From positions 310,001 to 374,000 of the forward strand of contig NZ_JAJLLW010000004.1 of assembly GCF_020991005.1 (NCBI RefSeq): a DNA stretch of 64,000 nt, read 5' to 3'. Below the pieces are notes generated by a model. The model saw only the letters and a list, made by a program, of their open reading frames with translations, was not told where the DNA came from and ran no database searches. The stretch comes from Halomonas sp. CUBES01 (lineage in GTDB: Bacteria; Pseudomonadota; Gammaproteobacteria; Pseudomonadales; Halomonadaceae). The position numbers were made by a program, and so were the translations under genes. Positions 16,921 to 19,994 of the stretch are shown here, piece by piece (positions within the stretch are counted from its first letter, which is position 1; each line of letters begins with the position of its first letter).

Positions 16921-17421
16921 TTAGTGACGTTTGAAGGCATGTAAATCCTGGGGGTCGAAGCGCTCGACCTCGGCGGGCAAGCCGAGGGAAACCCGATGCT
17001 CGCGGATGCGCCGGGATTCATTATCGTCGCTTGGCTCACGGCCGTTGAACGCGGCAAGCTGCGCCAGCCCCTGATGATAAAAGGCCAGAATATCCAGCGC
17101 CGTGCGGTTATCCTCCCCCGTCGCCTGGTGAAGCGCTGGCAGATGGCCGTTGATCCGTGACAGGTGCTGCTTGAGCTGCCAGACATAGCCGACTTCCTGC
17201 ATCCAGGGGCGGTCGCGTAACGCCGCAAACATGGCGCTGGTGGCAAGCAATCCGAGCACGCCGCCAAGGAGGTTGAGCCATAGGCTCTGGCCGAAGACGG
17301 TGGTGAGCAGCATGGCAAACAACAGCCCGAAAATCAGCAGTTGCCCGGCCATGATAAAGGTGATCATACGCGCCTTGCGGCGGTAGCTCGTGGGGTCGTG
17401 CGGCTCCAGGGTGAAGACCAT
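16921..17421 (-). CDS. DUF3087 family membrane protein
   Basis: A 166-residue protein recognised as DUF3087. Residues near 19-40 (FIMAGQLLIFGLLFAMLLTTVF) and 45-65 (WLNLLGGVLGLLATSAMFAAL) are two membrane helices; the rest is a cytoplasmic helical domain containing WQLKQHLSRI and LAFYHQGLAQL. The function of this family is not known to me. The start at 17421 is preferred because GAGG precedes it by 8 bases; an ATG six codons earlier lacks such a site. It lies downstream of the DAHP synthase gene but is separated from it by a palindromic element. Confidence 0.7.
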   Translation of the reverse strand: MVFTLEPHDPTSYRRKARMITFIMAGQLLIFGLLFAMLLTTVFGQSLWLNLLGGVLGLLATSAMFAALRDRPWMQEVGYVWQLKQHLSRINGHLPALHQATGEDNRTALDILAFYHQGLAQLAAFNGREPSDDNESRRIREHRVSLGLPAEVERFDPQDLHAFKRH

Positions 17422-17505
17422 GGCCAACCTCGCAGGCATAAAAGTGTAGGACGTGCCTATGATACGGGGCTGGCCAGGGCAAACAAGTCATAGCGTTCGT
17501 CGCTT

Positions 17506-17624: not shown

Positions 17625-18686
17625 CTACGACAAGCGTTCCGCGGCGTTCTTTAACAGATGTTCGGTGGTTTCCCAGCCGACGCAGGCGTCGGTGACCGAG
17701 ACGCCGTAACGCAGGGCGCCGGGCTTGAGCGGCTGCTTGCCTTCATAAAGGTGACTTTCCAGCATCAGCGCCACCAGGTTGGCATCGCCTGCCTGGCGCT
17801 GGGCCAGAACGTCGAGCATCACCTCGCTTTGGCGGCGGTGGTCCTTGCGCGCGTTGGCGTGGCTGCAGTCGACCATCAGACGGGGATTCTGTCCCGCTTC
17901 GCGCAGTGTATTGACGGCGGCGCGTACGTGGTGGGCCTGGTAATTGGGCTCGCCGTGGCCGCCGCGCAGTACCACATGGGTATGCGGGTTGCCGGCCGTC
18001 TGCTGCATGACCGGGCGCCCCTGGTCATCGAGGGCAAACCGCTGGTGCGAATGCGCCGCTGCCTGCATGGCATCGACGGCCACCTGGATATCGCCGCTGG
18101 TGGCGTTCTTGAAGCCGACCGCCGCAGTGAGGTCGCTGGCGAGCTCCCGGTGCAGCTGGGACTCGGTCGTGCGCGCACCGATCGCCACCCAGCTCAGGAC
18201 ATCTTCCAGATAGGGCGCCAGCATTGGCTGGAGCAGCTCGGTGGCCACCGGCAAGCCGCGACGCGCCACGCTCTGCATGACGTCGCGGGACAGCGCCAGG
18301 CCCTTGGGCAAATCACCGTGACCGTTCAACTGCGGGTCATAGGCCAGGCCTTTCCAGCCCACGGTGGTGCGGGGTTTTTCGACGTACACCCGCATGACCG
18401 GCAGAATCCGCTCGCTGACCTCGTCGCTCAAGGCGGCAAGACGGTCGGCGTAGTCGAGCGCGGCCTCAGGGTCGTGCACCGAGCAGGGGCCGACCACCAC
18501 CAGAAGGCGATCGTCCTGTCCGGCAAGGATGCGCTGCACCGCGCGGCGCTGATCGGCAATCTGCGCCGCGAGCGCGGCATCCATGGGCAGCTGGGCGTGT
18601 AATTCAGACGGCGTGGGCAGCCGCATCGTCGTCGAATCGTGCGAGGTGGACGGCGTATTGCGCATGGCGCTGACGGTGGCATTCAT
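17625..18686 (-). CDS. 3-deoxy-7-phosphoheptulonate (DAHP) synthase, class I
   Basis: A 353-residue AroF/AroG/AroH-type enzyme that condenses phosphoenolpyruvate with erythrose 4-phosphate, the first step of the shikimate pathway to Phe, Tyr and Trp. Family blocks are LLVVVGPCSVHDPEAALDYA, VMRVYVEKPRTTVGWKGL, WVAIGARTTESQLHRELAS, VGFKNATSGD, VLRGG and MVDCSHANARKDHRRQ. These include the metal-binding Cys and His. Start at 18686 has GGAG 9 bases upstream and fits the family N-terminus. An aromatic-rich leader peptide and terminator upstream suggest attenuation control. I do not assign F, G or H, because feedback specificity cannot be read safely. Confidence 0.93.
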   Translation of the reverse strand: MNATVSAMRNTPSTSHDSTTMRLPTPSELHAQLPMDAALAAQIADQRRAVQRILAGQDDRLLVVVGPCSVHDPEAALDYADRLAALSDEVSERILPVMRVYVEKPRTTVGWKGLAYDPQLNGHGDLPKGLALSRDVMQSVARRGLPVATELLQPMLAPYLEDVLSWVAIGARTTESQLHRELASDLTAAVGFKNATSGDIQVAVDAMQAAAHSHQRFALDDQGRPVMQQTAGNPHTHVVLRGGHGEPNYQAHHVRAAVNTLREAGQNPRLMVDCSHANARKDHRRQSEVMLDVLAQRQAGDANLVALMLESHLYEGKQPLKPGALRYGVSVTDACVGWETTEHLLKNAAERLS

Positions 18687-18690
18687 GGGG

Positions 18691-18846
18691 TTAACTCTCC
18701 GTAATCGTGGGACATCGTTTGACCAGCAGGCCACCGGTACGGGCACGGTCGGAGGTGGCAGCTGACACCGACCGCGCGTCGCTAAATCGCCAGCCGTCGT
18801 CCAGATAGCGATGTTCACCAGCGAATAAATAGGCGCGATAGGTCAT
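18691..18846 (-). CDS. Possible 51-aa peptide between the attenuator and the DAHP synthase gene
   Basis: A short open frame with GAGGAG 6 bases before its ATG, ending four bases before the DAHP synthase start. It encodes 51 residues beginning MTYRAYLFAGEHRY and including DDGWRF, so the first 21 residues contain three Tyr, two Phe and one Trp. The good ribosome site and tight spacing suggest it is translated and may couple initiation of the enzyme gene. No family is recognised. It may be a second sensing peptide or only a spacer. Confidence 0.4.
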   Translation of the reverse strand: MTYRAYLFAGEHRYLDDGWRFSDARSVSAATSDRARTGGLLVKRCPTITES

Positions 18847-18929: not shown

Positions 18930-18961
18930 AAAAAGCCCCGGTGGGGTTACCCACCGGGGCT
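18930..18961 (-). terminator. Intrinsic terminator, candidate attenuator of the DAHP synthase gene
   Basis: On the minus strand, AGCCCCGGTGGG pairs with CCCACCGGGGCT through a 12-bp perfect GC-rich stem with a 4-base loop (18934-18961). It is followed at once by five T residues. It lies about 50 bases after the stop of the aromatic leader peptide and 244 bases before the DAHP synthase start, in the same direction. That arrangement fits attenuation rather than termination of an upstream gene. Confidence 0.8.
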
Positions 18962-19007
18962 TCTTCGTTCGGCAGGCAACCCGTGGGGTGTGCCTGAAAG
19001 CGCGACG

Positions 19008-19133
19008 TTAGGCGTCGGCCATCGGCACACCGTTGCTAAACCAATAGCCATAACCAAAAACGCCAGGCGCGCAGCCACTATCCGCCATTATTGGCAGGCG
19101 GAAAACAGAGAACTGGGCACATGGTGATAACAT
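19008..19133 (-). CDS. Aromatic-rich leader peptide of the DAHP synthase gene
   Basis: A 41-residue open frame starting at ATG 19133, with AGGA 6 bases upstream; an internal in-frame ATG at 19088 would give 26 residues. Its second half reads VFGYGYWFSNG, so Phe, Tyr, Tyr, Trp and Phe codons cluster in seven positions about ten codons before the stop (TAA 19008-19010). Downstream, CAGGCA/TGCCTG (18973-18996) can form a small hairpin, and CCCAC (18983-18987) could compete with the 5' arm of the terminator. This is the classical layout of a translation-coupled attenuator sensing charged aromatic tRNAs. The frame is too short for routine gene finding. A weak TTGTCA/TAAAAG promoter may lie at 19192-19219. 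Confidence 0.65.
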   Translation of the reverse strand: MLSPCAQFSVFRLPIMADSGCAPGVFGYGYWFSNGVPMADA

Positions 19134-19256
19134 AAAACGTCCTGTTATGGTGTGGCTGCAACACGGCGGCAGCGAACGGTCTGGAACACGTCTTTTATCC
19201 TGCCTGTATGCGCTGACAATAGCAACACCCGGTGCGATTTATGCGCCCCGGCGCCT

Positions 19257-19994
19257 TCAGCGACGCGGCGCGTAGGAGAACACATCGGAGAATACCCGAT
19301 TCTCGTCGAGCCCCTTGCGCTCCAGCACGTCCATGCAGGCGTACACCATACCGGGAGAGCCGGAGATGAACACGTCCCACTCACTGGGCGTCATCGACGA
19401 CTGTTCGAGCGCCAAGTCGATGCGCCCCTGGTGGTGATGGATGCGCTCGCCGGAGGCCATCGGCTCGGTCAGCGGAAACTCGGTGACGGCCTGGAAGTCG
19501 ACGTTGGGATAACGCTGCGCCCAGTCGCAGGCGAGGTTTTCCGCATACAGATCGCGGTGCTCACGTACCGCCCACCACAGCGATACCCGACGTTCGGGCT
19601 GATGCGCAAGCGAGGCTTCAATGATCGCTTTCATCTGGGCAAAGCCGGTACCCGCCGCAATCAGCCATAGCGGACGCTCGCTTTGGGTGTCCAGCACGCA
19701 GTCGCCGCCGGGTAACCGCACGGTGAGCTGATTGGCGACCTGGAGCAGCTCGCGCAGCCGCGCGGAGTTGTCGCGCTCGGGCCAGTGCTGGATATGCAGC
19801 TCGATGATGCCGTCGCCACGCTCGGCACTGGCGATCGAGAAAGGCACCCAAGTGGCATCGTCGAGCTTGAGCTCCAGATACTGCCCGGGGGCGTGCTGCA
19901 TGGCTTCGGCGCGCCCCTCGAGGGTAACGCCGAATACGTCGGGGTTGAGATCCTCGACGGCCGTAACGTGGCAAGTCAACATCCTTGCGCTCAT
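19257..19994 (-). CDS. fre: NAD(P)H-flavin reductase (Fre/LuxG type)
   Basis: A 245-residue ferredoxin-reductase-fold enzyme that reduces free FMN or FAD with NAD(P)H. The flavin-side motif is VPFSIAS near 50-56 (the usual RPFSIAS), the nicotinamide motif is LIAAGTGFAQMKAIIE near 111-126, and the C-terminal ISGSPGMVYACMDVL matches the family CGPxxM segment. ATG 19994 has AGAGG upstream. It directly follows ubiD with the same orientation, as in E. coli ubiD-fre. There it plausibly supplies reduced FMN for the prenyl-FMN cofactor system of UbiD/UbiX. UbiX is not in the window. Confidence 0.88.
   Translation of the reverse strand: MSARMLTCHVTAVEDLNPDVFGVTLEGRAEAMQHAPGQYLELKLDDATWVPFSIASAERGDGIIELHIQHWPERDNSARLRELLQVANQLTVRLPGGDCVLDTQSERPLWLIAAGTGFAQMKAIIEASLAHQPERRVSLWWAVREHRDLYAENLACDWAQRYPNVDFQAVTEFPLTEPMASGERIHHHQGRIDLALEQSSMTPSEWDVFISGSPGMVYACMDVLERKGLDENRVFSDVFSYAPRR

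Follow-up and report, generated by a model that had tools for sequence, protein, structure and literature searches.

A leader region upstream of the DAHP synthase gene of Halomonas sp. CUBES01 probably acts as a ribosome-mediated transcription attenuator, which would sense shortage of charged tRNA for Phe, Tyr or Trp through the alternative pairing of five RNA strands. Attenuation by this region, referred to here as leader 1, is supported by comparative evidence, the regulation itself being predicted from the sequence. Such an attenuator would respond jointly to all three aromatic end products where the pathway begins, its logic being the reverse of that of the trp leader. Added here are the link to the Pseudomonas sRNA P15, the proposed five-strand logic, the order-wide spread and a tandem second leader (leader 2). 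In addition, the comparison offers a testable function for a Pseudomonas RNA family that is catalogued as an sRNA without a stated function. Throughout, the window denotes the whole stretch of 64,000 nucleotides that was analysed, and the features of the leader region described below lie on its minus strand.

Organisation of the Locus

The gene at 17625..18686 (minus strand) encodes a DAHP synthase of the class I AroFGH type with 353 amino acids (TIGR00034, 437 bits against a cut-off of 173). Along the minus strand, the leader 1 open reading frame (ORF), a long hairpin, a terminator, the leader 2 ORF and DAHP synthase (ATG at 18686) follow one another, and fre, encoding a flavin reductase-like protein, lies upstream of leader 1 in the same direction and ends at 19257. 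Directly downstream of DAHP synthase is an ORF of 172 amino acids (16921-17439, minus strand) without an NCBIfam match. The genome itself holds one full-length copy of leader 1 according to a covariance model. A second AroFGH-type DAHP synthase is present elsewhere in this genome (G000:C24:267425-268447), upstream of which no such leader was found either with the covariance model R1 or by eye, and a class II DAHP synthase was not found in the genome.

Leader peptide 1, of 41 amino acids (MLSPCAQFSVFRLPIMADSGCAPGVFGYGYWFSNGVPMADA), is encoded at 19008..19133, from the ATG at 19133 to the stop codon TAA at 19010-19008, behind the ribosome-binding site AGGAC at 19139..19143 (AGGA, 19143-19140). 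A 41-codon ORF with a ribosome site and the codons F-G-Y-G-Y-W-F had been reported in the preliminary description of this DNA, and both are present by direct reading and in the ORF list, the aromatic stretch occupying 19058-19038 on the minus strand.

Five strands follow these codons. Strand 1 (GGTGTGCC, 19024..19031) lies within codons G-V-P of leader 1 and starts 9 nt downstream of the first T in the final Phe codon, TTT, both in the window and in alignment A1. Strand 2 (AGGCACACC, 18987..18995) has strand 1 or strand 3 as its partner, while strand 3 (GGGTTGCCTGCC, 18971..18982) can pair with strand 2 or strand 4. Strand 4 (GGTGGGTAACCC, 18944..18955) comprises the upper 5' arm of the terminator, its loop and the beginning of its 3' arm; with strand 3 it would form the antiterminator (3:4), and alternatively its arm pairs with strand 5. 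The intrinsic terminator (strands 4:5 together with T5) spans 18930..18962, as judged from sequence, folding and conservation of 4:5. Its hairpin, GCCCCGGTGGG / TAAC / CCCACCGGGGC at 18960-18935, has 11 bp, or 13 with two A-T pairs added, and T5 (18934-18930) follows on the same strand as DAHP synthase. The terminator, its T-run and its direction had been described correctly, the stem length of 12 bp having to be adjusted; the hairpin ahead of it, formerly called small, is in fact a long stem at 19031-18987 whose 5' strand begins inside the leader 1 ORF.

The fold of 19133-18925 has a z-score of -5.25 against 200 shuffles. A simple terminator scan gave no terminator at leader 1, where some of the T-run can be taken up into the stem, and a simple scan for sigma-70 promoters gave none for leader 1. 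By eye, a possible weak promoter (TTGTCA, 16 nt, TAAAAG) is visible upstream of leader 1 at 19192-19219 on the minus strand.

Conservation and Distribution

Each of the 82 genus genomes searched at the DNA level matched the leader region (82/82). In 16 of the 82, the segment running from the aromatic codons through the terminator formed a separate alignment at 80-88% identity, the identity in the remaining genomes being mostly lower, with a minimum of 67%. Named genomes were searched with protein sequence, and of 357 loci the best 80 were kept, which belong to Halomonas, Vreelandella and one Halovibrio; 36 of them are among the 37 rows of R1, the covariance model built for leader 1. R1 finds leader 1 in 79 of the 80 (best 80 of 357), all at E < 1e-19, and 43 of the 44 which lie outside the model; the sole miss, L106, is located on a contig that starts 33 nt before the gene.

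With positions placed by R1, the last Phe codon and the 11 codons before it include F, Y and W in 78 of 79 loci, the exception (L098) being without Tyr. These 12 codons hold on average 5.25 aromatic residues across the 79 loci, against a background of 76 in 1098 residues in three neighbouring proteins. Matches in all 82 genus genomes and this enrichment of aromatic codons argue that leader 1 is not a product of chance. The last Phe codon is TTT in 49 of 49 rows of A1 and in 24 of 24 rows of A5. Conservation of the aromatic codons and the terminator in relatives had been named as a test of the attenuator in the preliminary description, and it holds for 79 of the 80 named loci, with F, Y and W in 78 of 79.

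Across the order, R1 matches 85 of 390 genomes at E<=0.01, some over the terminator only, and full-length matches at E<=1e-6 are found in 60 of the 390, the genome of the window included, from four families (f1, f20, f21 and f43). In a sample of the class, 7 of 369 match at E<=0.001, with one clear match outside the order (G634). DAHP synthase adjoins leader 1 in 49 of the 51 order or class loci that were fetched; the R1 matches without it, L149 and L150, are both weak. The fre gene lies upstream in 78 of the 80 named loci (best 80 of 357), the other two being short contigs. At the order level, 23 of 30 loci gave no fre, 2 of the 23 being the weak L149 and L150. Since fre was not detected at many order-level loci, leader and terminator go with DAHP synthase.

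Competing Helices

Helices were assessed in A1, which comprises 49 rows of 77 available, and in A5, with 24 rows from families f21, f43 and f207. In A1, helix 1:2 has 97.7% of its cells paired with 16 double-change cells (best slid register 49.1%), helix 2:3 has 93.1% and 12 (46.0%), helix 3:4 has 89.8% and 10 (63.3%), and helix 4:5 has 90.6% and 27 (81.8%). The double changes of 2:3 all fall at one pair and are no more than shuffles reach, in a shuffle control that ignores the relatedness of rows. The most variable pair of 1:2, 27/99, is UA in 31 rows, CG in 6, GC in 3, UG in 3, GU in 2 and AU in 1, the rest being unpaired (2) or a gap (1), and it connects the third base of a Gly codon with a base beyond the leader 1 ORF. 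As strands 2, 3 and 4 are each common to two helices, neighbouring helices are mutually exclusive.

The strand sequences of A5 differ from those of Halomonas, and strand 1, which there overlaps the leader 1 stop codon, starts 12-13 nt downstream of the first T in the final Phe codon, TTT. In both alignments (A1, 49 rows; A5, 24 rows) the control codons stop upstream of strand 1. Helix 3:4 is kept in A5, with 85.9% paired and 10 double-change cells, one of its pairs being AU in 9 rows, UA in 9, CG in 1 and unpaired in 5; slid by -3, it gives a covariation of 0.126 against 0.124, although only 70.3% is then paired against 85.9%. Helix 1:2 is 88.4% paired in A5 with hardly any variation, and being nearly invariant it has no covariation support there. 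The alignments thus point to a mutually exclusive antiterminator 3:4, with a reservation from the slid control in A5. A search for mutually exclusive pairing had been suggested with the preliminary description, and the overlapping helices proved to be conserved, with some compensatory changes.

Proposed Mechanism and Folding Tests

During shortage of Phe, Tyr or Trp, the ribosome would stall while decoding the Y/W/F codons, its leading edge then being close to where strand 1 begins. Most of strand 1 would then be left free, so that 1:2 forms and strand 3 is released, and free strand 3 with strand 4 would constitute the antiterminator, preventing the terminator and allowing DAHP synthase to be transcribed. 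When all three amino acids are plentiful, a ribosome at the stop codon would cover strand 1 or keep strand 2 away; with strand 1 blocked, 2:3 would form and strand 4 would pair with strand 5 as the terminator, and termination at about 18930 would release an RNA related to P15. For an untranslated leader 1, read-through is predicted, opposite to E. coli trp. We infer the stalling, the order of events and the termination in vivo, while the switch logic, above all read-through of the untranslated leader, is read from the architecture and is partially supported. The attenuator proposed in the preliminary description is upheld on comparative grounds, and is extended in that the design would not be the trp four-strand one and that a second leader peptide stands before the gene.

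In equilibrium folding at the point where strand 4 has just been completed, 3:4 was above 0.5 for 41 of 49 rows even when the ribosome had reached the stop. A ribosome holding Phe in its A site would touch strand 1, and 1:2 then exceeded 0.5 in 36 of 49 rows. Once the RNA was full-length, the terminator won whatever the ribosome state. Because equilibrium folding separates no states, the switch model depends on kinetics, and equilibrium folding was set aside as a switch test, being uninformative at full length.

A crude stepwise folding with a barrier of 8 or 6 kcal was applied to 13 of the 49 A1 rows and 12 of the 24 rows from other families. At 8 kcal, the Halomonas rows formed the terminator in 11 of 13 cases with the ribosome at the stop, in 1, 1 and 2 of 13 at Tyr, Trp and Phe stalls, and in 3 of 13 without a ribosome; among the stalled cases, the antiterminator formed in only 6, 4 and 6 of 13. 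At 6 kcal, the same rows gave the terminator in 5 of 13 at the stop, in 0, 1 and 2 of 13 at Tyr, Trp and Phe, and in 5 of 13 without a ribosome. For the other families, the terminator formed at 8 kcal in 6 of 12 at the stop, in 5, 4 and 2 at Tyr, Trp and Phe, and in 6 without a ribosome, and at 6 kcal in 7 of 12, in 2, 5 and 5, and in 4, respectively. E. coli trpL behaved as expected at 8 kcal: no terminator formed when the ribosome was stalled at Trp, and one formed when it had reached the stop. With the ribosome left out, trpL formed its terminator at 8 kcal but not at 6 kcal. The outcome of stepwise folding is fragile, and these simulations would support the five-strand logic in part.

A Second Leader Peptide

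Between the terminator and the gene lies a second ORF, absent from the preliminary description, of 51 codons and a stop, with the ribosome site GAGGAG. It encodes leader peptide 2 (51 amino acids, MTYRAYLFAGEHRYLDDGWRFSDARSVSAATSDRARTGGLLVKRCPTITES, 18691..18846, minus strand), and 4 nt separate the end of its stop from the DAHP synthase ATG. The core of leader 2, TGGCGATTTAGC at 18781..18792, carries the codons Trp-Arg-Phe-Ser and occurs in several families. In the form GGCGATTTA it is present in the window and in 76 of 79 named loci (best 80 of 357, L106 left out). It is lacking in L075, L076 and L110, where the leader 1 terminator precedes the gene, so that leader 1 can stand alone. Among loci with a recognised DAHP synthase start (L063 left out), the leader 2 stop ends in 75 of 75 within a range from 7 nt ahead of the first base of that start to 4 nt beyond it. 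Of 28 loci in the wider set, 22 contain TGGCGATTT and 17 of these have the complete 12-mer TGGCGATTTAGC; L128, L133, L138, L143 and L152 have leader 1 without the leader 2 motif. In the 38 rows of alignment A2, TGG-CGA-TTT is invariant. L137 keeps CGATTTAGC, with the Trp codon absent. The codon pair TTT-AGC (Phe-Ser) is found in both leaders (18781-18786 and 19035-19040), and in leader 2 it is strongly kept across families. The exact 13-mer TGGCGATTTAGCG has a single occurrence in the genome, at leader 2; a 25-nt match to the motif at G000:C27, antisense in a sensor kinase-like ORF, was taken as chance.

Downstream of the core, two stems at 18730..18774 together make an H-type pseudoknot, stem one pairing CGGTCGG (18774-18768) with CCGACCG (18752-18746) and stem two GCCACC (18759-18754) with GGTGGC (18735-18730). 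Over 38 rows, 97.2% of cells are paired with 5 double-change cells; the register slid by -1 has 7 double-change cells but just 50.8% paired. L136 and L142 have a Pseudomonas-like leader 2 in which TGGCGATTTA is followed by two elements similar to strands of the Halomonas pseudoknot, GGTGGC and CCGATCGG, and the other f21 loci inspected are without these elements by eye. In the Pseudomonas-like loci, as seen by eye, tens of bases separate the end of the second ORF from the gene, and coupling is therefore not general. The DAHP synthase ribosome site had a mean unpaired probability of 0.35 without a ribosome, 0.39 with one at Trp and 0.28 with one at Phe, computed on 37 of the 38 sequences with a model that has no pseudoknots; ribosome position thus made no clear difference to this site.

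Two further candidates were rejected. A frameshift from leader 2 into DAHP synthase is at odds with the frame offset between GGCGATTTA and the ATG, which varies (33, 27 and 15 of 75 loci), and an anti-Shine-Dalgarno pairing CTCCG/CGGAG in leader 2 is seen in many rows, but CTCCG is altered in a Halomonas group that includes L079, L083, L088, L094-L099, L102-L105 and L107. With low confidence, we suggest that leader 2 may add a second aromatic-dependent control, of translation or of transcript survival. It raises the question of why the Trp-Arg-Phe-Ser codon stretch stays almost invariant across families.

Relation to the P15 RNA Family

At gathering thresholds, Rfam gives nothing at the leader 1 locus, the sole match of the window at that level being t44 RNA (RF00127; 45544-45650, minus strand, 69.7 bits). 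RF00627, the Pseudomonas sRNA P15, matches 18935..19062 on the minus strand over its full model (1-119) with E 3.1e-7 and 42.7 bits, a score below its gathering score of 70. At gathering scores, P15 recognises 8 of 20 loci, at 87.0-125.6 bits, these being 7 of 7 from f21 and L138 of f43; DAHP synthase is adjacent in all of them, and the matches in f21 suggest that this is the Pseudomonas family. By E-value at 0.01, 6 of 14 sources match P15, and the 8 without a match include most of the Halomonas ones. The Halomonas-derived R1, for its part, finds the loci recognised by P15. We take the leader 1 RNA, apparently homologous over the full model at the same locus, to be a diverged relative of RF00627. 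P15 itself has reportedly been noted upstream of DAHP synthase and seen on Northern blots.

RF00627 is typed as a Gene in Rfam, in a record without a leader ORF or an attenuator role. In PMC2375449, P15 figures among the sRNAs detected in P. aeruginosa, from Livny et al. 2006, and the roles of the vast majority of such sRNAs are given there as unknown. As a tentative reading, about which we are somewhat more doubtful than confident, P15 may be the terminated half of an order-wide attenuator of inverted logic (five strands, with read-through as the untranslated default and termination only once a ribosome has passed the Tyr, Trp and Phe codons), acting in series with leader 2, with its pseudoknot and nearly invariant RNA core, which would gate DAHP synthase post-transcriptionally. 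If this is true, the entry gene of the pathway would be controlled twice by the same three amino acids.

Alternative Explanations

A standard four-strand attenuator of the trp or phe type, in which the stalled ribosome masks strand 1, the antiterminator forms and the untranslated leader terminates, is an unlikely description of leader 1. Its leader peptide, control codons, hairpin and terminator match that type, and in the non-Halomonas rows the untranslated state equals the stop state, with 6 of 12 terminators each at 8 kcal. However, the control codons lie upstream of strand 1, which starts 9 nt (A1) or 12-13 nt (A5) after the first T of the TTT codon, and the competitor of the terminator is strand 3, which also pairs with strand 2, giving a parity opposite to that of trp. 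The invariance of TTT (A1, A5) and of TGG-CGA-TTT (38 A2 rows) goes beyond what aromatic codons would need, as might be expected if YWFS and WRFS were arrest peptides whose chain itself, with an amino acid or drug, stalls the ribosome. Yet the residues before YWF vary while staying aromatic-rich, as control codons would, and the C-termini of leader 1 differ by family (GVPLADA, FSRSRA, FSQSRGRP), tracking the RNA strands, so that arrest appears quite improbable.

It is very unlikely that the leader 1 RNA serves mainly as a trans-acting small RNA of the P15 kind: DAHP synthase immediately follows in 49 of the 51 loci fetched, the leader keeps its aromatic codons and the genome has a single full-length copy, all of which fits cis control, whereas the RF00627 match, the detection of P15 among P. 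aeruginosa sRNAs (PMC2375449) and a Sinorhizobium trp leader peptide described as having a regulatory role of its own (PMC7298713) speak for action in trans. That the terminator merely ends the fre transcript and the leader ORF is fortuitous would agree with the position of fre, which runs in the same direction, ends at 19257 and precedes the leader at 78 of 80 named loci (best 80 of 357). We give this explanation hardly any credence, as matched changes connect the leader ORF to sequence past its stop and leader and terminator remain with DAHP synthase in the order-level loci, in 23 of 30 of which fre was not found.

Comparison With Known Systems

In a trp-type attenuator, the control codons lie inside strand 1, which is masked by the stalled ribosome, and the antiterminator 2:3 shares strand 3 with the terminator 3:4. 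Leader 1 has in common with E. coli trpL-type leaders a short ORF with control codons, alternative hairpins, a terminator and a biosynthetic gene downstream: end-product codons are found in the predicted translation at 78 of 79 loci, and an intrinsic terminator (4:5) stands before the gene. Unlike these leaders, it has five strands and opposite parity, three amino acids are combined in one leader, and read-through is predicted when it is untranslated. Its control codons lie upstream of strand 1 rather than inside it (A1, A5), and in place of the 2:3/3:4 sharing there is an extra helix, such that 2:3 excludes 3:4 and 3:4 excludes 4:5.

The literature searches, which did not extend to subscription papers such as Panina et al. 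2001 on aromatic regulation in gamma-proteobacteria, yielded no description of an attenuator upstream of DAHP synthase for this order. Within the parts of PMC2965389, PMC8632094 and PMC1262725 that were covered, only an Acholeplasma motif is relevant. This motif, uORFC-13-1, likewise has an upstream ORF with Phe codons and a terminator before aroF; it is reported only from Acholeplasma and environmental sequences, and is likened to leader 1 here by its description (PMC8632094). The same source mentions attenuation of E. coli aroF as an earlier hypothesis (PMC8632094). Two short ORFs in one leader are also known from the Salmonella mgtCBR leader, which differs in responding to two distinct signals, ATP and proline (PMC3641672). 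A mutation of the mgtP start codon in that leader is described as lowering expression sevenfold (PMC3641672), opposite to what is predicted for an untranslated leader 1.
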